Shown here in pieces: positions 3,746 to 47,049 of a DNA stretch of 64,000 nucleotides. Every line of letters starts with the position of its first letter. Within the stretch, counting starts at the first letter, position 1. Origin of the DNA: Actinoallomurus purpureus. GTDB lineage: Bacteria; Actinomycetota; Actinomycetes; Streptosporangiales; Streptosporangiaceae. The notes under the pieces were generated by a model. The model had not been told where the DNA came from. It saw nothing but the letters and a program-made list of their open reading frames with translations, and searched no databases. A program made the translations under genes and the position numbers. The DNA lies in assembly GCF_024055795.1 (NCBI RefSeq), contig NZ_JAMXMY010000003.1, positions 124,001-188,000 of the forward strand, read 5' to 3'.

Positions 3746-3763
3746 CCAGGTGTTCCTCTCCTC

Positions 3764-3925
3764 AGGCCGCCTACCGGGTTAGCTGACGGGTTCGGACAGA
3801 GAAGAAGCCCTACCGCGTGCCGTCGGCGACGGTCGCGGATTCACCCCGGATGCGAAGGCGGGGAGACGTCCCGTGGCTCCGCGTGTGGGTCCCCGGTTCC
3901 CCGGCGCGCGTGGCTGCGCGACGGG
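3764..3925 (-). ncRNA. cyclic di-AMP (ydaO-yuaA) riboswitch, copy 1
   Basis: The leader of the NlpC/P60 gene carries, on the minus strand, the blocks of the ydaO-yuaA aptamer in order: TGGGTCCCCGG (written on the plus strand), ATTCACCCCG, GCCCTACCG and the closing block at 3764-3795. The same blocks recur in the same order and spacing ahead of the CHAP hydrolase at 5130. This aptamer class is known in front of actinobacterial wall hydrolases and normally switches expression off at high c-di-AMP. The exact ends are approximate. Confidence 0.85.
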
Positions 3926-4084
3926 CGATTCGGCGGTCCGGCCGTCTCTCGGCCGGTGATGACTCGCTGGAGATTAACGGATAGTGACGGGGCGTCCAAC
4001 GAGAACATGCGGAGATGGCCCGGGGGATCGCAGGATGGTCACTCCGGGTGATGCGCGGCTGGTCCTTTGCGCCTAGAAACGACG

Positions 4085-5130: not shown

Positions 5131-5140
5131 ATCTCCCCTT

Positions 5141-5255
5141 AGGCCGCCTACCGGGTTAGCTGACGGGTTCGGGCCAGAGAGGAGCCCTACCGTGCGTGAC
5201 GGATTCACCCCGAGGGACAGTTGGGTCCCCGGCTCCCGCGACGCTGGCTGCGCCG
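5141..5255 (-). ncRNA. cyclic di-AMP (ydaO-yuaA) riboswitch, copy 2
   Basis: Starts ten bases before the CHAP gene. It shares with copy 1 a 32-nt identical block (5141-5172), then GCCCTACCG, GGATTCACCCCG, TGGGTCCCCGG and TGGCTGCG in the same order. The peripheral stem between the blocks is shorter than in copy 1 and differs in sequence, as expected for an aptamer held by structure. Ends are approximate. Confidence 0.85.
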
Positions 5256-5482
5256 CCGGGATTAGGCGGTCGGCCTGCAACCCCCTGATTGGAGGTTGGT
5301 CACAGCCCGATCTCGGCGAAATGTAGCCGAACTCTCGCAACAACGGCAACGCGTTCGGAGGCGAAAGTCTGGCATCACCTGCTCACCGAGCGTAGCTGCG
5401 CGCGGCCGCGTCCAGCCGGGCAACGGCCGAAAAGGCGCTCTCACGTGCGGCGGAGCGGAATGCGGGCATCAGACGGAAAGCC

Positions 5483-14139: not shown

Positions 14140-14294
14140 CTAGTCCTCCAGAGGATGCCCCGGCCTTCAGGCCGGGGAGGAATCCGGACTCCGTCAGGAG
14201 CGGCCCGGCGTGGCCGGGACGGCCTGAGAACGGAGTCCGCCGACATTCGGCCATTCGGCTTACACATTCGCATGACAGTTGTAATGTGTCGGTC

Positions 14295-15506
14295 ATGCGG
14301 ACGGCGTACAAGTGCCGGGCCTACCCCGGCCCCGAACAAGCGGCGGTGTTCAGCCGCACGTTCGGGTGTGTGCGTCTGGTGTGGAACAAGACCCTGGCCG
14401 AACGCCACGCGGCGTACCACCAGCGGGGCGAAAAAACCTCTTACAGGCAGACCGACGCGGCGCTGACCGGGTGGAAGAAGACCGAGGACCTGGCGTTCTT
14501 GTCCGAGGTGTCGTCGGTTCCGTTGCAGCAGACGCTGCGGCATCAGCACGCGGCGTTCGCGAACTTCTTCGCCGGCCGCACCAAGTACCCCCGCTTCAAA
14601 ACCCGCAACTCCCGCCAGACCGCGCACTACACCCGCTCGGCGTTCCGCATGAAGAACGACGAGCTGCACATGGCCAAGACCACCACGCCGCTGAGGTTCG
14701 TGTGGTCCTTCGACGACGTCGAGGTGTCCACGCTCAACCCCACCATGGTCGTCATCTCTCGTGATCCGGACGGCCGCTGGTACGTCACGTTCGCCGTCGA
14801 CACCGACACCCCCGAACCCTTGGAGGCGGCCGGGCACGCCATCGGTATCGATCTGGGGATCAAGGACTTCGCGGTCACCAGCGACGGGGAGCGCGTCGCC
14901 AATCCCCGGCATCTGGAGGGCAAGGCCCGCAACCTGGCCCGGTATCAGCGGCGGATGGCCCGCCGCGAGCGCGGGAGCGCCAACCGGCGTAAGGCCAAGG
15001 CCAAGGTCGCCCGCGCCCACCGCAAGGTCCGTAACGCCCGCGCCGACTTCCTGCACCGCACCAGCACCAACCTCGTCCGTCGGGCGGACACGATCGTGAT
15101 CGAAGACCTCGCGGTCAAGAACATGGTGAAGAACCGGAAGCTGGCGCGGGTGATCTCCGATGCGGGGTGGGGTGAGTTCCGCCGGCAGTTGGAGTACAAG
15201 GCCGAACGCGCCGGGCGCACGCTCGTGGTGATCGATCGCTGGTATCCGTCTTCCAAGACCTGCTCGGCTTGCGGGCACCTGCTCGCGGAGCTGAGTCTTT
15301 CCACCCGGCACTGGACGTGTCCGGGCTGCCGTACCCGGCATGACCGGGACATCAACGCGGCCAAGAACATCCTTGCGGCTGGTCGAGCCGTAGCCGGGGA
15401 GAGATCCTCTGGTGATGCCTGTGGAGCTGGTGTCAGACGGCAAGGGTCCTCCCTTCCGCAGTCGGCGCTGAAACAGGAAACCCGCGCCGTGAGGCGCCCG
15501 GCCTAA
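14295..15506 (+). CDS. tnpB: RNA-guided nuclease TnpB (IS605 OrfB family)
   Basis: The 403-aa TnpB is the programmable DNA nuclease ancestral to Cas12; with an omega RNA made from the element's right end it cuts DNA beside a short target-adjacent motif. All RuvC catalytic acids are intact: Asp186 (GIDLGIKD), Glu270 (VIEDLAVKNM) and Asp352 (HDRDINAAKN). The zinc knuckle is Cys323/Cys326 and Cys342/Cys345. An N-terminal helix-turn-helix region (FGCVRLVWNKTLAER) and an Arg/Lys-rich bridge helix are present. ATG 14295 fits the family start. No frameshift is visible, so the protein should be functional. The long reading frame on the opposite strand is a shadow. Confidence 0.93.
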   Translation: MRTAYKCRAYPGPEQAAVFSRTFGCVRLVWNKTLAERHAAYHQRGEKTSYRQTDAALTGWKKTEDLAFLSEVSSVPLQQTLRHQHAAFANFFAGRTKYPRFKTRNSRQTAHYTRSAFRMKNDELHMAKTTTPLRFVWSFDDVEVSTLNPTMVVISRDPDGRWYVTFAVDTDTPEPLEAAGHAIGIDLGIKDFAVTSDGERVANPRHLEGKARNLARYQRRMARRERGSANRRKAKAKVARAHRKVRNARADFLHRTSTNLVRRADTIVIEDLAVKNMVKNRKLARVISDAGWGEFRRQLEYKAERAGRTLVVIDRWYPSSKTCSACGHLLAELSLSTRHWTCPGCRTRHDRDINAAKNILAAGRAVAGERSSGDACGAGVRRQGSSLPQSALKQETRAVRRPA

Positions 15507-15567
15507 AGGCCGGATCGGCCGCAAGGCCGATGGGAATCCCCCTTTCTTCAGAAGGGGGAGGAAGTCA
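15420..15567 (+). ncRNA. putative omega RNA (reRNA) scaffold at the right end
   Basis: In IS605-type elements the guide scaffold is the 3' end of tnpB plus the right end, and the guide is the flanking host DNA. Here three stem-loops (15498-15513, 15515-15528, 15537-15558) close the element. The guide would begin at about 15568, reading into the tail of the minus-strand operon. The 5' limit is a guess. Confidence 0.45.
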
Positions 15568-15606
15568 AACACCAAGCGTTACCCGAGCCCCAGCGCTCAC
15601 ACCTCC

Positions 15607-15912
15607 TCAGTGGCGTGTCGCACCCGGCAGCCGATGTTTCGGCGGCGTATCGGTCCGGCCCGCCGTCCGCCACAGCTGGAGATATTGCGTACCGCCCCGC
15701 GTCGCCTGGGGGTTCATCGGGCCGGGCCGGACCACCACCGTGCGCGTCGCCATGACGAAGTCGCTCGACGGGCGGATGAGGAGCTGCCAGTCCAAGGTGC
15801 CGTACGCGGAAGTGTGCTCGGTCATCGCCACCCCGAGCGCGGGTCTGCCCAGGGGATCGCGCACCTGGCCGAGACTACGGACCCCTGGCAGCCCCGCCGG
15901 GATCGAGGGAGC
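15607..15912 (-). pseudogene. C-terminal remnant of a CU044_5270-type protein
   Basis: The frame has strong third-position G/C bias and reads PSIPAGLPGVRSLGQVRDPLG, then RPALGVAMTEHTSAYG and LLIRPSSDFVMATRTVVVR. The pattern PGV, D-x-x-GRP, 'relieved' repeat end and a TRTVVV-like finish resembles the C-terminal domain of the actinobacterial CU044_5270 family, proteins often paired with sigma factors. Nothing of the N-terminal part is present: upstream sequence is already the C-terminus of the membrane GTPase gene, three bases away. A short independent gene from the GTG at 15864 or ATG at 15825 cannot be excluded. The family call is weak. Confidence 0.4.
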
Positions 15913-15914
15913 GC

Positions 15915-17822
15915 TCAGTGGAACCGGGCGTATCCGGCCAGCCCCAGCACGACCAGCGCCGCCGGGCCCAGGACCAGCAGCGCGGTGAGCAGGGCACCGC
16001 GGCCGAGCTGATATCCGAGGGGGATGAGCCGTTCGGGCCGTCCGACGGCACTCCAGGGGTCGCGCCGCACGGTCGCGGGGCCCTCCATCGCGGCGGGCCG
16101 GTTTCTGGCGGCCCGGCTCCCGGCCTCCTCCGGACCCGCCGGAGCCCCCGGAAGGGGATCATCATCCGCCGGCGCGATGTTCCGGGGGATCGAACCGGCG
16201 TGATCCGGGCTCATGGGATTCCGGTCCTGTGCGTCGGCGAGGTCCCGGCCCGCGAGGTCGGTGGCCGGGGACAGTGGAGCAGCGTGATCCGGGCCCGCGG
16301 GATCCCGGTCGGGCCCGCCGATCGGGAGCCCGGCCGCCCAGCCGAACAGGTCGGCCAGCGCGGCCGGCGGGGTGTCGAGCCCGGAGGCGAGGTACCGGAC
16401 CTCGCCCGCCGTGCGTTCGAGCGTGCGGATCGTGTTGCCGAGGCCGACGCCCTCCAGCCAGCCGCGCACGTCCTGGTCGACGCCCTGCCCGACCGACGTC
16501 CTGCGCAGGACGTCGGCCTTGGTGACGACCACGGCGATGCGGCGCTGCCGGCCCTGGTCGTCGCGGGAGCGCAGATCGGTCAGCAGCCGTTGCAGCGTGT
16601 CGGCCGGGTCCTCCTCGGAGGTCGCGGTCGCCGCCTGCACGAGCAGCCGTTCGTCCTGGGACAGCGCCGGGCGCAGTTCGGGCAGGGCGAACGGATCGAT
16701 GACGAACAGCAGCGCCTCACCGTGGTCGAGATAGCGCAGCCGTTCGACCCGCGTCGCGCCGGTGTGCAGCTCACCGGCCGGATCGAACAGGTAGAGGATC
16801 CGGTGCCCGGCGGGCAGGGTGAGATCCAGCATCGTCGCGGCGGGCAACTCGGGTCCGGTCTTGGCGAGCCGCCCGCCGCCGTCGAGCTCGGCCAGCGCGC
16901 CGGCGTACGCGCGGGCGTCCCGTGCCTCGGCGAACTCCGCGCGCCCGCCCGCTCCGGCGGCGCAGGCGCGCAGGGCGCGCACCGCGAGGAACATCAGCGT
17001 CGTCTTCCCCGCGGCGGGCCCGCCGACGAACGGGAGCGGCTCGACGCGGGCCCGCCCGATCCGGCCGGGCAGCCGGCGCTCACAGTGCGGACAGTACGCG
17101 CTGAGCCGGAACCGGCCGAGCAGGATCATCGTGGGCAGCCGGGAGCCGCAGCGGCACACGTGGCGCAGGGCGCCCAGGCGGTTCGGCATCAGCCGGAAGT
17201 GCCGCGCGTCACATCGCGGGCAGGCGTACGCGGGCAGGGCCAGCCGCTGGTAGCAGCCCGGATGGGGGCAGGCCACCAGAATCCGGCGGTAGGCCGCCCA
17301 GAGGCGTTCGACCGCGCCGAGCACCGCGACGCAGACCGACCAGCCCGCCAGGCCGACGCCCGCCACGAGGACGGTCACCGCCGCGAAGACGAGAGCGGCG
17401 GCGGCGAGCGGCACGGCCGCCGACAGGAGGCCCGCGCACAGCGCCAGCCAGAGGGGGAACAGCGCCAGCCCCTGGGGGAGGGCGAGCATCCGCGCGGTCA
17501 GCGCGGTGACGCCCCGGCGTGCCCGGTCGAGGCACCAGGGGACCGTACGGAGCGCCACCGTCCAGGCGTCCCGCCACACCTGGCCGAGAAGGTACTGCGG
17601 GTACACCGGGTCCCGGGAACCGACGGCGGGACGGGGGACCGACGAGGGCCCGTCGACGGCGGTGGCCGTCAGGACCCGCCACGCGACGAGGAAGAACCGG
17701 CCGAGCCCGGCGCACGTCGCCCCGACCGCCGCGAGAGGGATCGCGAACGGTACGACGAACACGAACTCGGCCCAGACCAGGCCCACCCACAGGAGGAACG
17801 CGATGACGTAGACGACGGGCAT
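15915..17822 (-). CDS. membrane-anchored zinc-ribbon TRAFAC-like GTPase (double-GTPase system component)
   Basis: A 635-aa protein. Hydrophobic segments lie at about residues 3-20, 22-45 and 115-170, and a final helix (ALLVLGPAALVVLGLAGYARFH) sits at the C-terminus. Between them are zinc-ribbon pairs (CPHPGC...CPRC, CRCG, CPHC) at about 185-248. A P-loop GTPase domain follows: Walker A VGGPAAGKTT (266-275), Walker B LYLFDPAGE, and a base-recognition-like VVTKAD. It resembles the DO-GTPase proteins described with GAP1 partners. A tail of about 110 residues rich in Asp and Pro precedes the last helix. It is four bases downstream of the GAP1-like gene, so cotranscribed. I infer a membrane-tethered switch GTPase; no function has been shown. 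Confidence 0.75.
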   Translation of the reverse strand: MPVVYVIAFLLWVGLVWAEFVFVVPFAIPLAAVGATCAGLGRFFLVAWRVLTATAVDGPSSVPRPAVGSRDPVYPQYLLGQVWRDAWTVALRTVPWCLDRARRGVTALTARMLALPQGLALFPLWLALCAGLLSAAVPLAAAALVFAAVTVLVAGVGLAGWSVCVAVLGAVERLWAAYRRILVACPHPGCYQRLALPAYACPRCDARHFRLMPNRLGALRHVCRCGSRLPTMILLGRFRLSAYCPHCERRLPGRIGRARVEPLPFVGGPAAGKTTLMFLAVRALRACAAGAGGRAEFAEARDARAYAGALAELDGGGRLAKTGPELPAATMLDLTLPAGHRILYLFDPAGELHTGATRVERLRYLDHGEALLFVIDPFALPELRPALSQDERLLVQAATATSEEDPADTLQRLLTDLRSRDDQGRQRRIAVVVTKADVLRRTSVGQGVDQDVRGWLEGVGLGNTIRTLERTAGEVRYLASGLDTPPAALADLFGWAAGLPIGGPDRDPAGPDHAAPLSPATDLAGRDLADAQDRNPMSPDHAGSIPRNIAPADDDPLPGAPAGPEEAGSRAARNRPAAMEGPATVRRDPWSAVGRPERLIPLGYQLGRGALLTALLVLGPAALVVLGLAGYARFH

Positions 17823-17826
17823 GACC

Positions 17827-20247
17827 TCACGCCCCCCGCCGCCGCGACCCCCGCCACGCCGCGGCCAGCCGGGGGTCGCGGTCGGCGAGTGCCGATTCGA
17901 TCCGCCGTCGGTCGAACCGCCCGAGCCCGTCCGCCCACTCCTCCAGGAGCGTGGCGGGAATGTTCGCGTCCGCGAGGCGTACGCCGATCTCCGCCAGGTC
18001 CGCCCGGCCGTGCCGGTCCGGGCCGGCGGCGAGCCAGTGCCGGATCAGGGCGTCGCGCACCGCGTCCGGCGTCGCGATCAGCACCCGGACCCGCGACAGC
18101 GGCGAGCGACCGGCGAGCATCCGCGCGACACCGGCCAGCACGCGCTCGTCCAGCGGCCCGCCGGGCCGCGACGCGGCGAGGAACCGGGCGATCTCCTCCT
18201 CCGACCCGGCTCGCAGCGCGTCACCGTAGGCCAGGACGGTCCGTGCGGCGTCGGCCAGGCCGGGCAGCCGGTCGTCGATCAGCCGCGCGAGCCGCAGAGT
18301 CTCCTCGGCGTCGAGCGGCACGGCGTCGAACACCCTGCGCGGCAGGGCGCGCAGGACGGCGAACCGCGGCAGCGGCGGGCCGAGCCGCTCGGCCAGCCAC
18401 CGGCATTCCGGCACCGTCGGCGCCTCGCTCCACAGCACACCGAGCAGGTCCTCGATGTCCGGCAGGCCGTGGGCTTCGAGCGCGATCAGCTCGGCGGTGG
18501 CGGTCAGACGGTCGGCACGTGCGGACAGGACGAGCCCTCCGGTGCGCGGAGCGCGGGTCCAGTCGCGGTCGCCCAGGGCGGCGCACGCCTCCGGCGTCAG
18601 CATCGCCCGCCGGACCTCCGGAGGAGCGGACTCCAGCCCGGTCACGATTCCGGCGATCACCGCCTCCCGCCAGGCGGCGGGGGCCGCCCGAACCGCGGCG
18701 GCCACCTCGCCGGCGCCCCGGCGCGCGCAGGCGGCCGCCGCCGCGATCACGCGATCGCCGTCGACCGCGCCGCCGACGCGATCCGCCAGGCCGACGACCT
18801 CGGCGAGCGCCCGCAGGTCGGGCGCCCCGGCGAGCGCCGCCCGGAAGTCCTCCGGCAGGCCGTCGCGCAGCCGGACCGCGGGCAGCCGCCGCCGCACGCC
18901 CGGGTCGGCCAGGGCCAGCCGCACGCAGTGCTCGGCGGCCTCGGGGACGATCTCCGCGAGGGCCGCCGCCAGGTCGTAGCCGAGCACGGGCAGCGCCGGC
19001 GGGAGCCGGCCGCCGGGATCCAGGCGGTCGCCCGGGCGCATCCCGGCCTGTTTCCGCTGCTGTTCCCACGGCCCGGCCGACCGGACCCAGCCCGGAACAC
19101 CCCGGTCGCGGACGAGCCGGGCGGCCACCACCTGCTCCTCGGCCGAGACGGACGTGTCCCCCCGGCACAACGCCAACAGCGCCGCCGCACCGTCCAGGCG
19201 GGAGACCCCGCCCGAGCCGCCGGAGCGCGCCCTCTCATCCTCACCGCCGGAGCGGTTTGCCCTGTGTGCGCCGCCAGGAACCCGTGTCGCCCCACTCTCC
19301 GGCGGGGAGACCGCGCCCGAGCCGTCCGCGCCACCGATGAGCTCGCCGACGGCGTCGATGCCGTCCAGGTCGCGGCTCCTCCAGCAGTCCGCGATCACCT
19401 GCGCGAACCGGCCCGGCGGCGCGCCGGTCCGTACGAAGGGGCCGTCGAGGCGGAAGCCGCCCTCCGGGCAGGCGGCCGGGACGGTGCCCACGACGAGGTA
19501 CGGCGCGGCCTCCGGGTCGGCGGTGTAGGTGGTGAAGGACAGGCCGGCCGCCAGCTCGGCGGGCAGTGAGTACGACACGACCGCGATCCACCGGGCGATC
19601 AGCTCGACGTCCTCGGCGGCCAGGACCACCCGCCCGTGCCCCGCGACCAGCACAGTGGCCACGGCGTCGAGGACGGCGGCGAGGCGGTCGTGGGAGCGGT
19701 CGCCGCCGAGCCGCCCGGCCAGCGACTCGGGATCGAACGCCGCCCCGGGCGGCAGCCCGGCCGAGGGATCCCAGGACGGCGCTCCGTCTCCTGGCACGTC
19801 ACCCGGCGAAGAACCGCCGAGCGGGGCGTCCCACAAGCCGGAGTCCTCCGGAGAAGAGCTGCGAAGGCGGGCATCCCACCAGTGGGCGTCCCACACCGGG
19901 GAGTCCCAGAATTCGATCGGCCGCAGGCCCGCCATCTCCTCCGGCGTCGCCACGATGGCCTGCCCGAGGAAGTTGCCGTACCGGCCGGAGTAGTCCCGGC
20001 CGGTGTAGCGGCAGCGGGCCAGCACGGCGTACGGGCCCTCCCGCCCGTAGGCGAGCGCGGTGGGAAAGTCCGCCAGCTCGTCGGGGCCGGGAGCGGGCGG
20101 TGCACCCGGCGGCGGGCGGTACGCCATGTACGCCGTGACGGCGCGGGTGACGTCCGGCGGCGTGCCCTGGCTCATCGCGACGAACTGGAACCCGGACCGG
20201 CCGGTCGGGCCCCGGGCGGCCGACGTGTAGGTCAGCCGCCAGATCAT
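17827..20247 (-). CDS. GAP1-like GTPase-associated protein
   Basis: 806-aa soluble protein. The start MIWRLTYTSAARGPTGRSGFQFVAMSQG fits the N-terminal domain (type 2) of GTPase-associated protein 1, a family known only from genome context with double GTPases. The next 200 residues (YGREGPYAVLARCRYTGRDYSGRYGNFLGQAIVA) continue that domain, and the C-terminal half is an Ala/Leu/Arg-rich helical array with repeated DR-x-L motifs. Low-complexity inserts occur near residues 135-165 (repeated W-D-x-P/S, for example FWDSPVWDAHWWDARL) and 330-355. The ATG at 20247 overlaps the stop of the upstream GTPase gene (ATGA), giving translational coupling; the longer open frame to 20289 runs into that gene. 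Probably an effector or regulator of the two GTPases. Confidence 0.72.
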   Translation of the reverse strand: MIWRLTYTSAARGPTGRSGFQFVAMSQGTPPDVTRAVTAYMAYRPPPGAPPAPGPDELADFPTALAYGREGPYAVLARCRYTGRDYSGRYGNFLGQAIVATPEEMAGLRPIEFWDSPVWDAHWWDARLRSSSPEDSGLWDAPLGGSSPGDVPGDGAPSWDPSAGLPPGAAFDPESLAGRLGGDRSHDRLAAVLDAVATVLVAGHGRVVLAAEDVELIARWIAVVSYSLPAELAAGLSFTTYTADPEAAPYLVVGTVPAACPEGGFRLDGPFVRTGAPPGRFAQVIADCWRSRDLDGIDAVGELIGGADGSGAVSPPESGATRVPGGAHRANRSGGEDERARSGGSGGVSRLDGAAALLALCRGDTSVSAEEQVVAARLVRDRGVPGWVRSAGPWEQQRKQAGMRPGDRLDPGGRLPPALPVLGYDLAAALAEIVPEAAEHCVRLALADPGVRRRLPAVRLRDGLPEDFRAALAGAPDLRALAEVVGLADRVGGAVDGDRVIAAAAACARRGAGEVAAAVRAAPAAWREAVIAGIVTGLESAPPEVRRAMLTPEACAALGDRDWTRAPRTGGLVLSARADRLTATAELIALEAHGLPDIEDLLGVLWSEAPTVPECRWLAERLGPPLPRFAVLRALPRRVFDAVPLDAEETLRLARLIDDRLPGLADAARTVLAYGDALRAGSEEEIARFLAASRPGGPLDERVLAGVARMLAGRSPLSRVRVLIATPDAVRDALIRHWLAAGPDRHGRADLAEIGVRLADANIPATLLEEWADGLGRFDRRRIESALADRDPRLAAAWRGSRRRGA

Positions 20248-21398
20248 CCGCGCGCCCCGTCGAGCATCCCGAACCGGTACAGCAGCCACAGCAGCGGGTC
20301 CTCGACGCGGTACGGGCGGATGCCGCCCGTACCGACGGCCCCGTCGCGTGGCACGCCGCCCAGCGCGGACACCCCGAACAGGCCGTACTCGGCGTACTCG
20401 TGAGCGAGGTAGCGATCCAGTTCGCCGGCCTGCCAGTCATGCAGCAGCGCCCGGACCTGCTCGTGCACGGCCTCCCGGTCGTCCAGGTCGAGTACGTCGG
20501 ACCGGTCGCGCTGCCGCTGCAGCGTCCCCTCCAGCGGAAGTGCGTCGATCTTGGTGAGGGCCACGGCGGCGGGAACCGGCAGCCGCCTGCCGTGCGGGAC
20601 GTCGCGACCCGCGCGCAGCAGCTCGGTGACCCGGGCGATGACGTTGACGGGGTCGCCGTCCGGATCACCGTCCCCCGTCTTCAGCTCGAGCGGGTCGATG
20701 AGGAAGATGATCGCGTCCGCCGCCGAGAGGTAGCGCAGATGCAGGTCGGTGACGTCCCGGCTGCGCAGGTCCTCACCCGCCGTGTCGAACAGCACGAGCG
20801 TCAGGGACATGTCGCGCTGCCGCAGGTGCCGGCGCCGGGTGCGGGTCAGGAGGTACACCAGCGGATCGCGCGGCGCCGTCACCGCGCTGGCGGTCGCGGG
20901 CAGGAGGCGCCGCTCCCCGAACAGCGGGCGGTGGAAGTCACGCTTGTAGCGCTCGATCGTCCGGTCGTCGCAGGCGACGAGCGAGGTGCCGAGGTCCGCG
21001 CCGATCCGGTGGGACAGCTCGTGCAGCAGCACCGCGATGTAGGTGCTCTTTCCGGAGTTCTTCGCGCCCACCAGCGCCACGATCTTGCCGGGCGTCTCGC
21101 AGTACGCCGCGGGCAGCGGGTTGTGGCACTCGGGGCACGCGCGCCGGGCCGTCGTCTGGCCGCATTCGGGACAGACGGCGCGGCGGGCCGGAGCCCGGCC
21201 GACCCGCAGGCGGGCCGGCTCCGGCGGGGCGAACACCGGGGGCAGCGACGCGGTCGCCGTGGACCCGGTGTAGGCGGCCAGCCTCTCGTCGAGCCGGGGT
21301 GCGCAGCCCGGACCCCGCCCGGGACTGCCCGCGCAGCGGAACGCGATGCGTTCCCGGGCCACCCGCGCGAAGCAGTAGGGACAGGTGATCGACGGCAT
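20244..21398 (-). CDS. zinc-ribbon TRAFAC-like GTPase (double-GTPase system component)
   Basis: 384 aa. It begins with zinc ribbons: CPYC (6-9) pairing with later cysteines, and CPEC...CPEC (76-91). A GTPase domain follows with Walker A VGAKNSGKST (110-119), a switch region, Walker B VLFDTAGEDLRSRD, then IIFLIDPLEL and ALTKIDAL as the base-recognition motif. There is no membrane segment. It ends with a short Gly/Arg tail overlapping the GAP1-like gene by four bases. Its ATG at 21398 is part of a TGATG shared with the stop of an upstream minicistron, and the first 42 bases are echoed in those minicistrons. The pairing with a second, membrane GTPase and GAP1 supports a signalling system; the trigger is unknown. 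Confidence 0.78.
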   Translation of the reverse strand: MPSITCPYCFARVARERIAFRCAGSPGRGPGCAPRLDERLAAYTGSTATASLPPVFAPPEPARLRVGRAPARRAVCPECGQTTARRACPECHNPLPAAYCETPGKIVALVGAKNSGKSTYIAVLLHELSHRIGADLGTSLVACDDRTIERYKRDFHRPLFGERRLLPATASAVTAPRDPLVYLLTRTRRRHLRQRDMSLTLVLFDTAGEDLRSRDVTDLHLRYLSAADAIIFLIDPLELKTGDGDPDGDPVNVIARVTELLRAGRDVPHGRRLPVPAAVALTKIDALPLEGTLQRQRDRSDVLDLDDREAVHEQVRALLHDWQAGELDRYLAHEYAEYGLFGVSALGGVPRDGAVGTGGIRPYRVEDPLLWLLYRFGMLDGARG

Positions 21399-21463
21399 CA
21401 GGTCTCGCGTTCCGGTGGGGTGGCCAGGCTCGCGAGGCGGCGGGGGCGGGTGACGGGCGGCAT
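21398..21463 (-). CDS. minicistron 3, directly coupled to the GTPase gene
   Basis: 21 codons (MPPVTRPRRLAS...PPERET) ending in TGA that shares its A with the GTPase ATG. The first 14 codons match the GTPase gene's own start at about 30 of 42 bases. This suggests a decayed copy of that start whose zinc-ribbon cysteines are lost. It could serve for translational coupling or simply be a by-product of duplication. Confidence 0.55.
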   Translation of the reverse strand: MPPVTRPRRLASLATPPERET

Positions 21464-21528
21464 CAGGTCTCGCGTTCCGGTCGGGTGGCCAGGCTCGCGA
21501 GGCGGCCGGGGCGGGTGACGGGCGGCAT
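21463..21528 (-). CDS. minicistron 2
   Basis: 21 codons (MPPVTRPGRLAS...RPERET), nearly identical to minicistron 3. Its ATG overlaps the stop of minicistron 1 and its stop overlaps the next ATG. No convincing Shine-Dalgarno sequence precedes it, so it could be translated only by re-initiation. Confidence 0.5.
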   Translation of the reverse strand: MPPVTRPGRLASLATRPERET

Positions 21529-21662
21529 CAGGTCTCGCGTTCCGGTCGGATGGCCAGGCTCACGAGGCGGCGGCGGGTGACGGTCCGCATCAGCCCTCGC
21601 GTTCCTGCATCAGCCCTCGTGTTCCGGTCTCGCGTCCCATGCGTGTCCCGTGCGTCTCTCAT
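21528..21662 (-). CDS. minicistron 1, coupled to the stop of the 841-aa gene
   Basis: 44 codons from an ATG overlapping the TGA of the upstream 841-aa gene. The second half (MRTVTRRRLVSLAIRPERET) is a diverged repeat unit; the first half is Arg/Asp/Thr-rich (MRDARDTHGTRDRNTRADAG). It completes a chain of four TGATG junctions from the 841-aa gene to the GTPase. Confidence 0.5.
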   Translation of the reverse strand: MRDARDTHGTRDRNTRADAGTRGLMRTVTRRRLVSLAIRPERET

Positions 21663-24187
21663 CAGCCCACCTTCAGGTGGCGGACCGGAGGGTCGCGCAG
21701 GTCGATTGTGTCGTCTTCGGCGAAGCAGCGCAGCCAGAACGGCCGGGGCAGCCGCGGCAGCGTCACCTCCAGGCGCGCGGGCACGTCCAGGTCCTCCCAG
21801 GACATCACGGTCCGTCCGTCGCCAGGCCGTTGCGGCATGGGGCCGGCCCGGGTGACGAGGACGAGCCGCCGCAGGCGTACGGGGGCCGCGGCGGACAGCG
21901 TGACGGTCAGGGGGCCGCGCAGGCGGGGGCGGCGCACCTCGTAGGCGACGGTGGTCCGGCCCGGCACCGTGGTCGTCACGGGCGTGCCGGTGACCCGCTG
22001 CCCGTGCGCCGTCGCCGCGGCGGCGACCTCGATGGTGACCGCCTCGTCCGTGGGAGCCGGGAGGCGAACGCCACCGTGGGCGTCGTAGCCGGCCCGGCCG
22101 ACGGGCAGCCGTCGCGTCTCCCCGGTCCCGGACCGCCAGGCCACCTCGACCTCGGTGACGTCGGGCGGCCAGTCGAACCCGAGCGTGATCACCTCACCGT
22201 GCCGCTGTGCGATCAGCTCGCGCGGGGGCGTCAGACTGACGTGCTCGCGGTGCGCGCCGATCGTGGCGAGGTCACCGGCGACCGACACGGCCAGCAGCAC
22301 ACCCGGGCCCGCCCGGACGGCCAGGCCGCCCGGAGCGGGAACCGCGCGCAGGATCCGGCCGACGCGGCGCACCTCCTCCATCGGCAGTGTCGTGCCGGGC
22401 GGCCACGGCGGCGGCCCGTCCATCGCGACGAGCTCCACCTCGCCGTCGGCCGGCGGGTCGAAGGTCACGACGAGACGCCCGGCGGGGTCGTGCTCGACAC
22501 CGAGATCCTCGACGGGATGGGGCCGGGCGGCGGGGGTCGCGGCGGCGTGCACGCCGGACGTAACCGCCTCCCGGCCGTCGGCGTCGAGATAGACGGCGGC
22601 GATGCGGTAGTGGTACGTCGTCCCGTTGCGCACGGTCTCGTCGCGGAAGCCGGTGCGCGCCGCCGGGACGGGCGCGCCGTCGCGGGTGACGACGACGCGG
22701 CCGGCCTCCGGCGGGCAGGACCAGCGGCCCGCGACGACGGCGTCCGCGGCGGTCACGGTGAGGTCGGCGGGCTCCGGGCGTCCGAGCACCGGCCCGGCGA
22801 CCGCGGGCGCCGACGCGGCCGCGCCTCGTACGGCGAACACCGCGTAGTAGACGGGGGCGTTCAGCGGAGGCGCGGGGTCACGGGCGTGCGCGGCCTCCGC
22901 CGCGAGCCGCTCGCCGTCACCGGGATGCCGGGGGACCCTCCCCAGGCAGCGGACCACGACGTGCCCGATCTCACCGACACGTGAGGGTGACGGCGACCAG
23001 GACAGCGCGACGGCGAGGCCGTCGACGGCCGCCTCGAGCCGCCCGGGCGCCCCGGGCGGCAGCCCGGTCTGCAGATCGGCGGCCCCCGGCAGGTCACCGA
23101 CCAGCCGGAGCGCGTCGGCGAGCCGCAGCCACGCCCCGTCGGGATCGGACAGCAGCAGGGAGGCCGCCTCCTGGCGCAGCGCCGTCGCCGCCGCGACCCG
23201 CCGCCGCGCCTCGTCCGCGAGGACCTGCGCGTCACCGACCGGCTCGCCGGCGATCGCGGCCAGCTCGGCGGCCGCCTGCACCTCTCCGGCGTCGATGAGG
23301 TCGCGCAGCCGTGCGGCCAGGCCGCCGGCCGGGGCGTTCTCCCGCCGCACCGCGAACACCAGACGGCCCGCGTCGTCGCGGTCCACACCGAGGTCGTCGA
23401 CCGCGAACCGCAGGAGCGCCCCCTCCGAGGCCCGCTGCTGGTGGCGCTCGCGCATCCGGTCCACCACGTCGTAGCGCACCAGCTCCGCGAGCCGTCCGCC
23501 CACTTGGCGCACCGCCACCAGGACGGTGTCGGCGTTGGTGCGGTTGCCGTCGTGCGGCCGCCGGCTCCACTGCTCGCCGACCTGCTGCGCCGCGGGTCGC
23601 AGGTCGTGGACCGCGTCGAGAACGCGGCCGGCGCCCGGCTCGCCCGTCAGGAACTCGTGCAGGTGCCGCACGCCGAGGGCGTCGAGCGCGTCACGGGCGC
23701 GGGCGTAGCCGGCGTACGGCGGCGCGGTCGGCAGCGGGTCGGGCTCCCGGATCTCGATGCCGGCGTCTCGGGCGACGTCCGCGGCCTCACCGCCGATCTC
23801 CCGCAGGTCGGCGGGGGAGAGCATCCGCAACTGTCCGGCGGCGTCCAGCAGCCGGTCCCGCAGCTCGGCCCGGCGGTGCCCGGCCCGGTCGCCCGCCGCG
23901 GCGATCTCGGCTCGCAGCGGCGCCAGGTCGCCCACCGCGGCCCGCTCGAACAGCGGTGCGAGCCGCAGGTGGTCACCCTCGAGCCGGTCGATGAGCCGCC
24001 GGAACCGCAGCTGGCCGCGGGCCTTGCGCCAGCAGGTGCGCACCCGCTTGACCCGGTCGGCCACCTCCCGGGCGACGAGCGGATCCGGCAGGGCGTAGCG
24101 CAGGCACAGGTCGTCGGGCGGCTGGTCCCCGGCCGCCCGCGCGGGCTCCAGCACCTCCCGGACGTAGCGCCGTTCGTCAAAGACCAC
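21662..24187 (-). CDS. 841-aa protein with helical N-terminus and fibronectin-like repeats, Hsp70-system component
   Basis: I do not recognise a named full-length family. The first about 330 residues are charged and helical (RRYVREVLEPARAAGDQPPDDLCLRYALPDPL). From about 390 to the end the protein is beta-rich with fibronectin type III-like units, marked by LEAAVDGLAVALSWSPS, GTTYHYRIAAVY, RLVVTFDPPADG and ITLGFDWPPDVTEVEVAW. No catalytic motif or membrane segment was found. Its GTG start shares one base with the Hsp70 stop (TAGTG), so it is coupled to the chaperone. Fibronectin-like multidomain proteins are known next to Hsp70 and GTPases in predicted conflict operons, where they may bind clients or the chaperone. 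The assignment is contextual. Confidence 0.7.
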   Translation of the reverse strand: MVFDERRYVREVLEPARAAGDQPPDDLCLRYALPDPLVAREVADRVKRVRTCWRKARGQLRFRRLIDRLEGDHLRLAPLFERAAVGDLAPLRAEIAAAGDRAGHRRAELRDRLLDAAGQLRMLSPADLREIGGEAADVARDAGIEIREPDPLPTAPPYAGYARARDALDALGVRHLHEFLTGEPGAGRVLDAVHDLRPAAQQVGEQWSRRPHDGNRTNADTVLVAVRQVGGRLAELVRYDVVDRMRERHQQRASEGALLRFAVDDLGVDRDDAGRLVFAVRRENAPAGGLAARLRDLIDAGEVQAAAELAAIAGEPVGDAQVLADEARRRVAAATALRQEAASLLLSDPDGAWLRLADALRLVGDLPGAADLQTGLPPGAPGRLEAAVDGLAVALSWSPSPSRVGEIGHVVVRCLGRVPRHPGDGERLAAEAAHARDPAPPLNAPVYYAVFAVRGAAASAPAVAGPVLGRPEPADLTVTAADAVVAGRWSCPPEAGRVVVTRDGAPVPAARTGFRDETVRNGTTYHYRIAAVYLDADGREAVTSGVHAAATPAARPHPVEDLGVEHDPAGRLVVTFDPPADGEVELVAMDGPPPWPPGTTLPMEEVRRVGRILRAVPAPGGLAVRAGPGVLLAVSVAGDLATIGAHREHVSLTPPRELIAQRHGEVITLGFDWPPDVTEVEVAWRSGTGETRRLPVGRAGYDAHGGVRLPAPTDEAVTIEVAAAATAHGQRVTGTPVTTTVPGRTTVAYEVRRPRLRGPLTVTLSAAAPVRLRRLVLVTRAGPMPQRPGDGRTVMSWEDLDVPARLEVTLPRLPRPFWLRCFAEDDTIDLRDPPVRHLKVG

Positions 24188-25776
24188 TAGTCGACGCGTA
24201 TGTGGGCCAGGTCGGTGCGCGACTTGTGCACCTCTTCCTCGGACATGCCGCCGACCCGGACCTCGAGCGTGAGCTCCTCGGCGGTCTCCTTCTCCACGGC
24301 CGTGACGTGCAGCAGGCCGGAGGTGTCGAGCGCGAAGGTCACCTCGATGGGCCAGCCGGCGGGCTTGCCCGGCGGGATCTTCAGCTCGCCGTCGGCGATG
24401 GGGGTGTTGTGGGCGACCTCGATCGACTCGGTGCTGCCGGCCTGCTCGACCACGATGATCTTGACGATCGTCTGGTCCTCGTCGACGGTGCCGAACTCGC
24501 GCGTCTTTCCGCGCGGGAGCGCGTCGTTGGCGTGGACGAGGTGCACGACGTGCTCCCGCGCGGTGTCCGGGTCCAGCGCGATGACGCCGAAGGCGCGTGA
24601 GGCCACGGTCGTGATCTGCCGGGCCGCCATCCGCTCCTGCTCGGTCTCGGACAGGCCGGCCCGGGACGCCAGGTCCAGGGCCTTGTCCGTCTCGCCCTTG
24701 GCCAGGAGCTGCCGGTAGGTCTCCTCGAAGGCGTACAGCGCGGCGCCCTTGGCGACCGCCAGGTCGGGGTCCTGGAGCCGGGGGCTCAGGGCCAGCTCGT
24801 CGGCGAGCCGCCGCCGCACGGCGGGCATCTTGGTGGAGCCGCCGACGAGCACGAGGTCGTCGTAGTCGGAGACGCCCTTCTCGGCGGCTGTCGCGAGGGT
24901 ACGGCCGGTGATCTCGATGCTGCGGTCGAGCAGGTCCTTGGTGATCTCCTCGAACTTCTCGCGGGTCAGCTCGACCGTCGCCACCCGGCCCTCGTGCATG
25001 ACGCGCACGACGTGGCGGGTGCGCAGCGACAGGGCCTTCTTGGCCTCCTCCGCGTCGTGCCGCAGTTGCTGCTCGGTGTGCTTGTCGTCGAGGGGATCGC
25101 CGACGTCGGGATGCTCCTCCGCGAACCGCCCGGCGAGGTACTCCACGACCCGCGCGTCCCAGTCGGCGCCGCCGAGCTCGTGGTCGCCGTCGGTGCAGAC
25201 CACGGAGATGTCGCCGCCGCGCAGGGTGATCACCGTGGTGTCGAACGTGCCGCCGCCGAGGTCGTACACCAGGATCGTGCGGTCCTCGGTCCCGCCCCCG
25301 TTGAGCACGCCGTACGTGATGGCGGCGGCGATCGGCTCGGAGATGATGTCGATGACGTTCAGCCCGGCGATGCGGCCCGCCTTGCGGGTGGCGTCGCGCT
25401 CGGCGGCCCCGAAGTAGGCCGGCACCGTGATGACGACGTCGTGGACCTCCTCGCCGGTCGTCGCCGTGGCGTCGGCCACCAGCTTGCGCAGGACGAAGGC
25501 GGAGATCTCCTCGGGGGAGTAATCGCGGGCGTGCAGCTCACGCGGGACGTCGTGGCCCATGTCCCGCTTGATCAGGCTCACCACCAGGTCGGGGAACAGG
25601 ACCGCGGTGTCCTTCGCCGGCGCGCCGACGACGACGTTGTCGGCGGACTCGAAGTAGACGACCGACGGCGTCGTGTCGGTGCCCTCCATGTTGCGCAGTA
25701 CGGCCGGGCGGCCGACGTCGTCGACGCGTGCGATGCACGAGTGGGTCGTGCCCAGGTCGATACCGTAGACAGCCAT
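24187..25776 (-). CDS. Hsp70 (DnaK-like) chaperone lacking the C-terminal lid
   Basis: 529 aa against about 610-640 for a housekeeping DnaK. The ATPase domain is complete: GIDLGTTHSCIA, VVITVPAYFGAAERDATRKAGRIAGL, VYDLGGGTFDTTVI and LVGGSTKMPAVRRRL. The substrate-binding beta domain is recognisable (FGVIALDPDTAREHVVHLVHANDALP, then GELKIPPGKPAGWPIEVTFALD). The helical lid is replaced by a stop after VGGMSEEEVHKSRTDLAHIRVD. An insertion at about 340-385 carries a helical segment (EETYRQLLAKGETDKALDLASRAG) not seen in DnaK. The GrpE-like gene ends one base before its ATG, and no DnaJ gene is present. This dedicated Hsp70 probably serves the GTPase system rather than general folding. Confidence 0.9.
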   Translation of the reverse strand: MAVYGIDLGTTHSCIARVDDVGRPAVLRNMEGTDTTPSVVYFESADNVVVGAPAKDTAVLFPDLVVSLIKRDMGHDVPRELHARDYSPEEISAFVLRKLVADATATTGEEVHDVVITVPAYFGAAERDATRKAGRIAGLNVIDIISEPIAAAITYGVLNGGGTEDRTILVYDLGGGTFDTTVITLRGGDISVVCTDGDHELGGADWDARVVEYLAGRFAEEHPDVGDPLDDKHTEQQLRHDAEEAKKALSLRTRHVVRVMHEGRVATVELTREKFEEITKDLLDRSIEITGRTLATAAEKGVSDYDDLVLVGGSTKMPAVRRRLADELALSPRLQDPDLAVAKGAALYAFEETYRQLLAKGETDKALDLASRAGLSETEQERMAARQITTVASRAFGVIALDPDTAREHVVHLVHANDALPRGKTREFGTVDEDQTIVKIIVVEQAGSTESIEVAHNTPIADGELKIPPGKPAGWPIEVTFALDTSGLLHVTAVEKETAEELTLEVRVGGMSEEEVHKSRTDLAHIRVD

Positions 25777-25777
25777 C

Positions 25778-26416
25778 TCAGTCTCCTCCGATGGGTTCGG
25801 CCGCCACCCGGGCGACGATCACCTCGGCACGTCGCGCGATCCGGTCACCACGGACGAAGCCGGTCCGCTGCACCCTCGCGACGGTGCCGTCGAGCTCCGC
25901 GTCGTCCACGTCCTCTGTGCCCGCCGGGCGGTGCCGTGCCGGGTCGAACACCTCACCGGCCTCGATGGCCATGCGGTCCACGCCCGTGCGGGCCAGCGCC
26001 TCGGCCAGCTCGTCGGCGATCGCCGCCAGCAGCCGCGGCGTATGGTCCGCGTCCACCGTCGCGCGCTCGGCCTCCCGCCGGACCAGGTCGTAGAGGCGGT
26101 ACAGCGCGGCGCGCACCGGCTCGAACGCCGCCTGAAGCTCACCGTGGCGCAGCCGCTCGTTGTCCGCGTGCAGCCGGTCGATGACGCGCTCCCGGTGCGC
26201 CGCGCGCTCGTGCTCCCTGCCGACCGTCTCGGTCAGGCCGGCCAGGAGTGAGTGGATGTCGTCGAGGGACGCCGCGATCGCCCGGCCGGGATCGCCGGCC
26301 GACGATGAGCCGGTGCCGTCGGTGGGCGGATCGAGGGGTGCCCCGATCGCCCGGCCGGGGTCGCCGGCCGGCGGGGAGCCGCTCCCGTCGTCGGGGGGCT
26401 CGGGGTCAACGGGCAT
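25778..26416 (-). CDS. GrpE-like nucleotide-exchange protein, first gene of the Hsp70/GTPase operon
   Basis: 212 aa with the shape of GrpE: a disordered acidic N-terminus, a long helix (SLDDIHSLLAGLTETVGREHERAAHRERVIDRLHADNERLR), then a compact beta end with HRPAGTEDVDD and GTVARVQRTGFVRGDRIARRAEVIVARV, as in the GrpE wing. It should exchange ADP for ATP on the partner Hsp70. ATG 26416 is favoured because the preceding 18 codons lack protein-like character; the ribosome site is weak and a leaderless transcript is possible. The disordered N-terminus contains a 69-bp duplication (AGDPGRAI twice). The promoter of the whole operon should lie between 26417 and 26744. Confidence 0.75.
   Translation of the reverse strand: MPVDPEPPDDGSGSPPAGDPGRAIGAPLDPPTDGTGSSSAGDPGRAIAASLDDIHSLLAGLTETVGREHERAAHRERVIDRLHADNERLRHGELQAAFEPVRAALYRLYDLVRREAERATVDADHTPRLLAAIADELAEALARTGVDRMAIEAGEVFDPARHRPAGTEDVDDAELDGTVARVQRTGFVRGDRIARRAEVIVARVAAEPIGGD
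26275..26412 (-). repeat. two 69-bp direct repeats in the GrpE-like leader
   Basis: Units begin with CGATCGCCCGGCCGGG at 26275 and 26344, are similar over about 60 bases and keep the reading frame. They give the repeated motif AGDPGRAI in a disordered Pro/Gly/Ser region. Confidence 0.8.
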
Positions 26417-26973: not shown

Positions 26974-27591
26974 CTACCGGATGGCCGCGCCGGCCTGGCG
27001 CTGCCGCTCGGCCATCACGGCCAGCACGTGCTCCACCAGGGCGATCAGGACCTGCTTGCCGGACTCACGCCGGCGTACGTCGCAGAGGATCACCGGGACC
27101 CTGGGGTCCAGGTCGAGTGCCGCGCGGATCTCCTCGGTGTCGTATCCGATCGCGCCGTCGAAGCAGTTGACCCCGACGATGAACGGCAGCCGCCGCCGCT
27201 CGAAGTAGTCGATGGAGGGGAAGGAGTCGGCGAGCCGGCGGGTGTCGGTCAGCACGACCGCGCCGAGGGCACCGAGGGCCAGCTCATCCCACATGAACCA
27301 GAACCGGTCCTGGCCGGGCGTGCCGAACAGGTACAGGACGAGACCGTCGCGGATGGTGATGCGGCCGAAGTCCATCGCCACCGTGGTCGTGGTCTTGCGC
27401 TCCACACCGGAGGTGTCGTCGACGCCGACGCTGCGGTCCGTCAGCTGTTCCTCGGTCCGCAGCGGCTTGATCTCGCTGACGGCGCCCACCAGGGTCGTCT
27501 TTCCCACCCCGAATCCGCCCGCGACGAGGATCTTCACGGCGAGCGGCATGGCGGCAGCGCCCCGCGAGGGGTCAGAGCGCCTGGAGTCCAT
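26974..27591 (-). CDS. cvnD: conservon small Ras-like GTPase (CvnD type)
   Basis: 205 aa. P-loop VAGGFGVGKTTLVGAVSEI, switch II region with VLYLFGTPGQDRFWFMWDELALGALGAVV, base recognition VGVNCFDGA (the VNxFD variant normal in this family) and a C-terminal QVLIALVEHVLAVM helix. It acts with the kinase-like, roadblock and DUF742 partners in a membrane-associated GTPase signalling complex known in Streptomyces development and antibiotic regulation. The ATG at 27591 overlaps the DUF742 gene by 20 bases, the arrangement seen in most conservons. An inner ATG (27549) is less likely. Confidence 0.92.
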   Translation of the reverse strand: MDSRRSDPSRGAAAMPLAVKILVAGGFGVGKTTLVGAVSEIKPLRTEEQLTDRSVGVDDTSGVERKTTTTVAMDFGRITIRDGLVLYLFGTPGQDRFWFMWDELALGALGAVVLTDTRRLADSFPSIDYFERRRLPFIVGVNCFDGAIGYDTEEIRAALDLDPRVPVILCDVRRRESGKQVLIALVEHVLAVMAERQRQAGAAIR

Positions 27592-27934
27592 TGAGCACTT
27601 CCTTCAAAACCCGTTCGTTGGGAAGACGGTTCTCTGTTTCAGGCCGGCGTACGACGATCAACCCGTGGTCCAACAGGTCTCCGAGCAGGACCCGGACGAC
27701 GCCCAGGGGGAGCCTGAGCTTCGCCGCAACCTCCGCCACCGAGAGCGGGCGCACGCACAGGTCGAGAATGGCGACGTGCTCCGGGCCGGCGTTCGGCGGA
27801 GCGAACGTCGACGTCGCCGCCGTCGCGATGATCGCGATCAGGTCGAAACCCTCGCGTGAGGCCCGCGTACGGCCGCGCGTCAGAGCGTATGGCCGGACCA
27901 CCGGCCCGGCCTCGTCGTCGAGCCATTCGCTCAT
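27572..27934 (-). CDS. cvnC: DUF742 protein (CvnC type)
   Basis: 120 aa with the family's RPYALTRGRTR start, the winged-helix-like core (ILDLCVRPLSVAEVAAKLRLPLGVVRVLLGDLLDHGLI) and the C-terminal NERVLKEVLNGLQAL helix. Third gene of the conservon; thought to bridge the GTPase and roadblock protein. Overlaps the GTPase gene downstream. Confidence 0.93.
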   Translation of the reverse strand: MSEWLDDEAGPVVRPYALTRGRTRASREGFDLIAIIATAATSTFAPPNAGPEHVAILDLCVRPLSVAEVAAKLRLPLGVVRVLLGDLLDHGLIVVRRPETENRLPNERVLKEVLNGLQAL

Positions 27935-27985
27935 TCAGCCGTCCCGCCTCATGGCCCGTTGTCGTTCTCGCACGATGACGGGGCC

Positions 27986-28390
27986 TCACGATTCCACGGC
28001 CGAGCGAGGAAGGGTCGACATGTGCTGGCCCACGCGCTTGACCAGCATCGCCATCTCGTAGGCGATCATGCCGACGTCCGCGTCGGCTCCCGCCAGCACC
28101 GCGAGACAGGCACCGGAACCGGCCGCCGTGACGAACAGGAAGGCGTGGTCCATCTCGACGATCGTCTGGCGCACGCCACCCCCGCCGAACTGGCGTCCGG
28201 CACTGCGGGCGAGGCTCTGGAAGCTCGCGGCGACCGCCGAGAGGTGCTCGGCGTCCTCCCGTGTGAGGCCGGCGGACGAGCCGACCAGCAGGCCGTCGCT
28301 GGAGAGCACCACCGCCTGCCGCACCTGGGCGACGCGATTGACGAGGCTGTCGAGCAGCCAGTTGAGTTCCCCCGCAGAACCCGCTGACAT
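27986..28390 (-). CDS. cvnB: roadblock/LC7 domain protein (CvnB type)
   Basis: 134 aa: LNWLLDSLVNRVAQVRQAVVLSSDGLLVGSSAGLTREDAEHL and FLFVTAAGSGACLAVLAGADADVGMIAYEMAMLVKRVG define a single roadblock domain, likely a GTPase-activating or scaffold subunit. The ATG at 28390 overlaps the kinase stop (TGATG); the upstream in-frame extension to 28453 lies within the kinase gene. Confidence 0.93.
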   Translation of the reverse strand: MSAGSAGELNWLLDSLVNRVAQVRQAVVLSSDGLLVGSSAGLTREDAEHLSAVAASFQSLARSAGRQFGGGGVRQTIVEMDHAFLFVTAAGSGACLAVLAGADADVGMIAYEMAMLVKRVGQHMSTLPRSAVES

Positions 28391-46716: not shown

Positions 46717-47049
46717 GCGCCGCTGCTCGCGCCCCAACCCGTCCCCCTCGCGTCGGCCGGCGATCGGCAGGGCCTTCACGATACGGGGGACAGCTCCCGG
46801 TTGGTGCCTGATTTTCGCCCCGCTGCGCGGCGCGGGCGCTGCCGTACGCAGCCGCCGATGGCGGAGCCGCTTGTTATGCCTGGTTCTGCATCGGACGGTT
46901 CGTCATCGGCGGCACGCATGCGGATCACGGCCACCTGCCGTGCGTTCCTCTCTCACGGCGCGTCGCGCGAGAATCTCGGCGGAGCCGGCGACAGGGGGAC
47001 GCTCCGGCATCGCGATCGTCGCCGGGGTCTCGCCGTCGGGCATGGATGG

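Follow-up and report, generated by a model that had tools for sequence, protein, structure and literature searches.

A GAP1-N2 DO-GTPase operon of Actinoallomurus purpureus with a lidless Hsp70 that lacks the arginine on which J proteins act

We describe an operon of the actinobacterium Actinoallomurus purpureus that lies within a stretch of 64,000 nucleotides (contig NZ_JAMXMY010000003.1, positions 124,001 to 188,000; the whole stretch is referred to as the window, and its numbering is used throughout). It encodes a GrpE-like protein, an Hsp70, an 841-residue fibronectin type III (FNIII) protein, a soluble GTPase, a GAP1 protein and a membrane GTPase. The six protein genes run on the minus strand from 26416 down to 15915 and meet at gaps or overlaps of 1–4 bases; the sole longer junction is a 263-bp minicistron block between the FNIII gene and the soluble GTPase gene. 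A preliminary description, drawn from the sequence without database searches, had placed all genes on a single strand with near-zero spacing apart from this block, and the coordinates of the open reading frames (ORFs) agree. The features are as follows.

25778–26416, minus strand: GrpE-like nucleotide exchange factor, 212 residues; starts at ATG 26416 in an ORF that opens at GTG 26470; Pfam GrpE in the C-terminal part, 5.2e-11
24187–25776, minus strand: Hsp70, 529 residues; ATPase domain, insertion before the linker, beta part of the substrate-binding domain (SBD-beta), no lid, Asp at the position of Arg167
21662–24187, minus strand: 841-residue FNIII protein, putative scaffold; assigned with AlphaFold2 and Foldseek
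23822–24187, minus strand: Hsp70-linked N-terminal helical domain (N-domain) of the 841-residue protein, residues 1–122 as modelled
21528–21662, minus strand: minicistron 1, 44 residues
21463–21528, minus strand: minicistron 2, 21 residues
21398–21463, minus strand: minicistron 3, 21 residues
21393–21605, minus strand: tandem array of a 65-bp unit, 3.3 copies, most of the minicistron block; Tandem Repeats Finder score 345
20244–21398, minus strand: soluble DO-GTPase2-type GTPase, 384 residues, N-terminal zinc ribbons; PF19993, 5.3e-10
17827–20247, minus strand: GAP1 (GAP1-N2 and GAP1-M), 806 residues; starts at Met15 of a longer GTG-initiated ORF; PF20013, 2e-36; PF20014, 7e-22
15915–17822, minus strand: membrane DO-GTPase2-type GTPase, 635 residues, zinc ribbon, N- and C-terminal transmembrane segments; PF19993, 4.8e-19

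A promoter scan found no promoter-like site, and a terminator scan returned 2 terminator-like sites, with 0.9 expected.

Gene content, distribution and the published operon type

What kind of operon is this? Pfam matched DO-GTPase2 in both GTPases, GAP1-N2 and GAP1-M in the GAP1 protein, GrpE (E values above) and HSP70 (7.5e-103); one of the two DO-GTPases also passes MMR_HSR1 weakly. The names DO-GTPase and GAP1, put forward in the preliminary description, were thereby confirmed above cut-off, and the GTPases do not fall into unrelated housekeeping families, DO-GTPase2 being matched above cut-off in both. In the host assembly GAP1-N2 is matched once and DO-GTPase2 twice, each time within this operon.

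The main text of Kaur, Burroughs, Iyer and Aravind (2020, PMC7159879) describes GAP1-N2 DO-GTPase systems with an FNIII protein, in which HSP70 and GrpE occur in about 14% of neighbourhoods; the FNIII protein is there typically, if not obligatorily, fused to DnaJ or TPR. Like the actinobacterial members of this theme, the window operon combines zinc-ribbon DO-GTPases, one of them in the membrane, GAP1 with its N2 and M regions downstream of a DO-GTPase, an FNIII protein, and adjacent HSP70 and GrpE genes. Unlike the typical case presented in that text, its FNIII protein has neither a DnaJ fusion nor a Pfam-detectable TPR: Pfam returned no J or TPR match, and a J-domain hidden Markov model (HMM) was negative. 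We are all but certain that the operon is a chromosomal HSP70/GrpE-theme GAP1-N2 DO-GTPase operon. Because this theme is already published in PMC7159879, the operon type is not new: the families named in the preliminary description held up, and the gene combination it drew attention to was already in print. What is known is the operon type; what is worth following is the wiring of its Hsp70. A whole-word search of the main text of PMC7159879 finds no mention of HPD (the J-domain motif), lid or R167, and relative to that main text the loss of Arg167, linker and lid, together with the Hsp70-linked N-domain, is new. Literature searches on HPD-less J-like domains, lidless actinobacterial Hsp70 and GAP1 terms brought up nothing that seems to describe such an Hsp70, and no biochemistry on this operon type was found in the literature searched.

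An Hsp70 search yielded 14 loci, nine of them actinobacterial with the same gene order (L036 and L039 are cut by contig ends) and five from other phyla. Further stretches were mostly chosen, non-exhaustively, from GAP1-N2 hits, which left 110 loci with at least one of the six families after removal of nine duplicates and eight short stretches from a repeat search. All six genes are present in 70 of the 110, and strand and order are identical in 70/70; the remaining loci are contig-cut, have no Hsp70 module or miss a family, and L147, L148, L150 and L167 hold GAP1 only. Synteny outside close relatives, on which the preliminary description had staked its reading, therefore extends well past near kin. 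GrpE is matched in 81 of the 84 Hsp70-bearing loci. Of the 250 genomes from 68 genera sampled in the host's family, 98 genomes, in 22 genera, carry GAP1-N2; in the phylum sample it was found in 8 of 396 genomes (own genome counted), and among the Actinoallomurus genomes examined in 8/8.

Within the genus the operon is under purifying selection, the ratio of nonsynonymous to synonymous substitution rates (dN/dS) being below 1 for each gene. Measured against seven loci of the genus, the two slowest components are the soluble GTPase (0.08–0.15) and the Hsp70 (0.10–0.21), followed by the FNIII protein (0.24–0.34), the membrane GTPase (0.27–0.39, six loci), GrpE (0.29–0.49) and GAP1 (0.40–0.51), the fastest. 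For comparison, a neighbouring dehydrogenase gave 0.15–0.24 and CvnA 0.37–0.50.

Two zinc-ribbon GTPases, one soluble and one membrane-bound, on either side of GAP1 had been predicted from the sequence, and Pfam, hydropathy and gene order support this layout. The P-loop pattern is kept in 80/80 relatives of the soluble and 73/74 of the membrane GTPase, DxAGE in 79/80 and 44/74, respectively, and at least two CxxC motifs occur in 78/80 soluble and 72/74 membrane GTPases of Hsp70-positive loci. A crude hydropathy scan places hydrophobic segments of the membrane GTPase at residues 1–42, 112–134, 135–173 and 606–635, that is, three N-terminal segments, the first with space for two helices, and one C-terminal segment; the same scan gives GAP1 one marginal segment. 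The Met15 start of GAP1 produces a 4-base ATGA overlap with the soluble GTPase gene, and the equivalent start is used by GAP1 relatives outside the genus. In A. spadix (L035, about 15300–17787) GAP1 is split into two open frames, by a sequencing error or a real frameshift.

An Hsp70 with its ATPase residues and without lid, Arg167 and linker

How far has this Hsp70 departed from a canonical DnaK? The best Hsp70 of each locus was aligned with E. coli DnaK and the two canonical DnaKs of the host genome. After removal of nine duplicate records and the doubtful hit L166 the set comprises 84 proteins, in which 22 actinobacterial genera are represented; five of the loci belong to other phyla. Of the 84, 79 are accompanied by a GAP1 ORF, L118 has a genome GAP1-N2 match in the region, and L043 and L045–L047 have no GAP1 in their stretch.

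The ATPase residues K70, E171, T199 and D201 are kept in 84/84. All 84 proteins end at a point equivalent to DnaK position 525–527, and thus none has a lid. The alignment with DnaK bears out both the missing lid and the insertion ahead of the linker, features that the preliminary description had noted. No member has Arg at position 167, where Asp (68), Asn (6), Gly (5), Ala (3) and Gln (2) are found instead, and the ungapped motif agrees. A VLLLD-like linker is likewise found in 0/84, a count that is independent of the alignment, and D393 in 0/84, although which residue lies opposite D393 varies with how the region of the insertion is aligned. E. coli DnaK and both canonical host DnaKs have R167 as well as the VLLLD linker.

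According to PMC7289447 and PMC13012618, R167 of DnaK pairs with D393 and D481, and the aspartate of the J-domain HPD motif competes for R167. In PMC7289447, the Arg-to-Asp variants of DnaK and Ssq1 show raised basal ATPase activity and poor J stimulation, and their simulated interdomain distance resembles the J-bound state. Asp at the Arg167 position in 68/84 Hsp70s recalls these laboratory variants, DnaK R167D and Ssq1 R207D, as that source presents them; unlike them, the change seen here is natural and is joined with loss of linker and lid. By this analogy, the window Hsp70 naturally carries the change that bypasses J control in DnaK and Ssq1. Since linker and lid also differ, a bypass in the window Hsp70 itself may be proposed rather than asserted.

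With the DnaK-DnaJ-GrpE machine the window system shares the ATPase domain, SBD-beta and GrpE; it differs in an Hsp70 without lid, Arg167 and VLLLD linker and in an operon where a J protein is undetected. Together these features suggest an Hsp70 that is wired differently from textbook chaperones.

A search with the C-terminal half of the Hsp70 (E 1e-30) found the same 13 of 60 relatives as GAP1, plus the genome G056; the match in G020 is a second copy and not the operon gene. The G056 protein (L172, G056:C155, 7763–9460, minus strand) is a lidless Hsp70 with Asp167 from another actinobacterial family, on a contig that has no GrpE, GAP1 or GTPase match.

The FNIII protein, the search for a J domain and the surroundings of the operon

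The 841-residue protein has no Pfam match, to FNIII or any other family. Its AlphaFold2 model, built from a 10-sequence alignment (mean predicted local distance difference test score, pLDDT, 87.2; predicted template modelling score, pTM, 0.36), shows helices over residues 1–375 followed by beta-rich domains, the arrangement of which is uncertain because of the low pTM. The best Foldseek matches of this model in the PDB are fibronectin type III arrays (E 1.2e-12), in agreement with its earlier description as a fibronectin-repeat protein.

The preliminary description had cast this protein as a client-binding adaptor; what comparison of the loci brings out is that its conserved N-domain, the first ~110 residues, travels with the Hsp70. 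Where an ORF of 500 residues or more was assigned as FNIII (94 loci), the N-domain is present in 77/80 Hsp70-positive versus 2/14 Hsp70-negative loci, and a genome search with it matched exactly the 13/60 relatives matched by GAP1. In three loci without an intact Hsp70 (L125, L131 and L146) the N-terminus of the FNIII protein looks, by eye, like an eroded N-domain; of the Hsp70 itself, L146 retains a remnant of 76 residues and L131 a weak remnant (E 0.003). Modelled in isolation (residues 1–122), the N-domain reaches pLDDT 89.9 and pTM 0.77.

Is there a J protein to serve this Hsp70? A J-domain HMM based on DnaJ of E. coli plus four J ORFs of the host was run at E 1 on locus ORFs of at least 80 residues. 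No J domain was detected in such ORFs between 9001 and 36000 of the window, which upholds the earlier statement that the operon has no DnaJ; because the HMM is so small, it could miss a J domain that is weak or diverged. The four J ORFs of the host genome lie elsewhere, outside the operon. Over all loci, the HMM matched only planctomycete proteins (L045–L047) and one ORF of L064, a flank ORF in what is the only actinobacterial stretch with a match; HPD is absent from the J-like domains of both.

The planctomycete matches (L045, 9440–11062; L046 and L047, 11617–13263) are proteins with two HPD-less J-like domains and PDZ domains, and they adjoin GrpE and a lidless Hsp70 whose residue 167 is Ala. 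L064 (G006:C88) is a diverged system of six genes, the second of its kind in the Actinoallomurus genome that carries it. Some 5 kb upstream of its operon, another Hsp70 that keeps R167 and D393 lies beside the HPD-less J ORF. A strict pairing of R167 loss with HPD loss was considered and is not clean, as this second Hsp70 of L064 keeps both residues.

At the minicistron block, the FNIII stop codon, the three short ORFs and the GTPase start codon are chained by one-base TGATG stop/start overlaps. The array of the 65-bp unit is the only place in the genome where this unit occurs at high similarity (the next-best genome match scores 38.3 bits), and it is not found at the same junction of the 7 other Actinoallomurus loci. 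In five of the eight loci of the genus (L034, L035, L036, L052 and L053) the junction is a bare TGATG; the window, L049 and L051 carry inserts that differ from one another (263, 67 and 112 bp, respectively) and are bounded by TGATG on either side. Conserved small proteins are thus ruled out, with 5/8 junctions bare and the other inserts different. In our reading the minicistrons are probably local expansions in which the coupling of stop and start was preserved, rather than conserved peptides.

Immediately upstream of the operon and on its strand (26974–31359, minus) lies a complete set of four genes for a sensor kinase-like protein, a roadblock protein, a DUF742 protein and a GTPase, which we take to be a conservon (cvnABCD). 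CvnD occurs in the stretch of 7/7 other Actinoallomurus loci and an alcohol-dehydrogenase-like gene in 6/7 (L036 ends before it). The conservon as a general part of the system was ruled out, the window's cvn proteins being unmatched in L037–L042 at 1e-5. Near the 3' end of the operon an IS605-type TnpB gene (14286–15506, plus strand) is overlaid by a match to the Rfam antisense RNA family Sernc389 (14482–15076, minus). Farther away, two c-di-AMP riboswitches (RF00379) were found on the minus strand, one at 3751–3937, just upstream of the minus-strand ORF 2717–3745, the other at 5129–5278, overlapping the start of an ORF called at 4141–5349; a 1209-residue helicase-like protein (AAA_11/AAA_12) is encoded at 43150–46779, minus strand.

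A possible gate on a membrane GTPase complex, and competing explanations

What could such an Hsp70 do in this operon? We propose that the membrane and soluble DO-GTPases would be a pair switched by nucleotide, with GAP1 as its reader (a switch inferred in the main text of PMC7159879), and that the FNIII protein would act as scaffold, its N-domain docking the specialised Hsp70. With Arg167 replaced (by Asp in the window) and the VLLLD linker gone, this Hsp70 might no longer need a J protein; GrpE would reset its nucleotide. As the lid is missing, its grip on a bound segment would be loose and reversible, and the pace of binding and release would be slow, set by its own ATPase. Such a protein may thus gate or time, slowly and at the expense of ATP, the assembly of the GTPase complex at the membrane, a role that suits a lidless, putatively J-insensitive Hsp70 with GrpE better than refolding does. 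A membrane GTPase switch with an attached Hsp70 is plausible. As a mechanism, the GTPase pair read by GAP1 with an FNIII scaffold that docks a J-independent Hsp70 as assembly gate is offered tentatively, as somewhat less probable than the overall account. Its most specific form, in which the Arg167-to-Asp and linker replacements fix the J-induced state, the N-domain replaces the J protein and a constitutively J-bypassed, lidless Hsp70 times a membrane GTPase switch, we regard as doubtful. Taken as a whole, identity and mechanism together, this is our best explanation, with a probability of roughly 0.45. Gene content and order, the residue losses, the missing lid and the co-occurrence of N-domain and Hsp70 are observations; docking, gating, assembly at the membrane, coupling, clients and a defence role are inferences.

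A number of observations weigh against this explanation. The 84 Hsp70s are related, not independent, and near-duplicates are included. The loss of D481, third member of the arginine network, is uninformative because this position is Asn in both canonical host DnaKs. The lidless Asp167 Hsp70 stands alone in the GAP1-less genome G056, and the lidless Hsp70s of L045–L047 have no GAP1 in their stretch. The G4 motif TKxD is found in only 44/80 soluble and 59/74 membrane GTPases. The N-domain is kept in Hsp70-negative L112 and L117 and unrecognisable in Hsp70-positive L044, L132 and L143; among the 12 loci that have neither, L095 is contig-cut, and L166 and L170 are doubtful FNIII hits. As the N-domain has no PDB match (Foldseek, best E 7.3) and no significant profile match to J domains, its role as Hsp70 partner is argued from co-occurrence. 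FNIII-DnaJ fusions occur in other theme members described in the main text of PMC7159879, which means that J-independence may not apply to every member of the theme. We found no data on interactions or on GTPase or ATPase activity.

Could the operon instead be an anti-phage or conflict system, as Kaur et al. propose? An invader would then be sensed by the FNIII protein and contained by an assembly that the Hsp70 forms, with the GTPases providing a threshold. The context argument in the main text of PMC7159879 and the patchy spread of GAP1-N2 in family and phylum point that way. Matches in PADLOC are, however, weak (best 0.0048), and among the Pfam matches of the operon no effector domain is recognised. 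Purifying selection acts on the FNIII protein, which is not hypervariable, and since the fastest component is GAP1, not FNIII, a hypervariable FNIII sensor fits poorly within the genus. CvnD lies in the same stretch in each of the seven Actinoallomurus loci compared, protein P0004 is unmatched in 72,556 plasmid records, and protein P0003 has only two matches there, at 27% identity, and no match among 50,697 phage records. We consider the conflict reading unlikely, and the defence role suggested earlier for this operon gains no support from the weak PADLOC matches, the missing effector and the purifying selection. Equally unlikely, in our view, is a housekeeping complex for the cell envelope or hyphal development, with the Hsp70/GrpE module in charge of maintaining a membrane GTPase assembly. 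Fixed order in all complete loci, purifying selection and presence in every genome of the genus examined would be expected of it, but the system is absent from most genera sampled in the family and from nearly all of the phylum sample, and therefore is not essential to actinomycetes in general.

Two further explanations concern the chaperone module, and both seem improbable to us, the second slightly more so. The N-domain might be a J domain in derived form, without HPD but still able to bind the altered Hsp70. The planctomycete lidless Hsp70s with Ala167, next to proteins with two HPD-less J-like domains, make this conceivable, as does one weak match between an N-domain subset and these J-like domains (hhalign E 0.0058 in a single comparison, probability 6.4). 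Canonical J domains, however, are unmatched (hhalign probability <=1.1), Pfam gives no J match, and Foldseek lists no J domain for the isolated model; on these grounds the reading of the N-domain as a J domain is not supported. Alternatively, having lost lid, Arg167 and linker, the Hsp70 might be a degenerating or purely structural pseudo-chaperone. Against this stand the four catalytic ATPase residues, retained without exception, the GrpE match that accompanies nearly every Hsp70, and its place among the two slowest-evolving proteins of the operon.

The Hsp70 gate on a GTPase complex thus remains our preferred explanation. An Hsp70 that keeps its ATPase residues without the arginine on which J proteins act offers a sharp and cheap prediction. 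If the explanation is true, this operon would provide a natural case of an Hsp70 working free of J-domain control, and the best candidate for the segment that took over the J role would be the N-domain of the FNIII protein.

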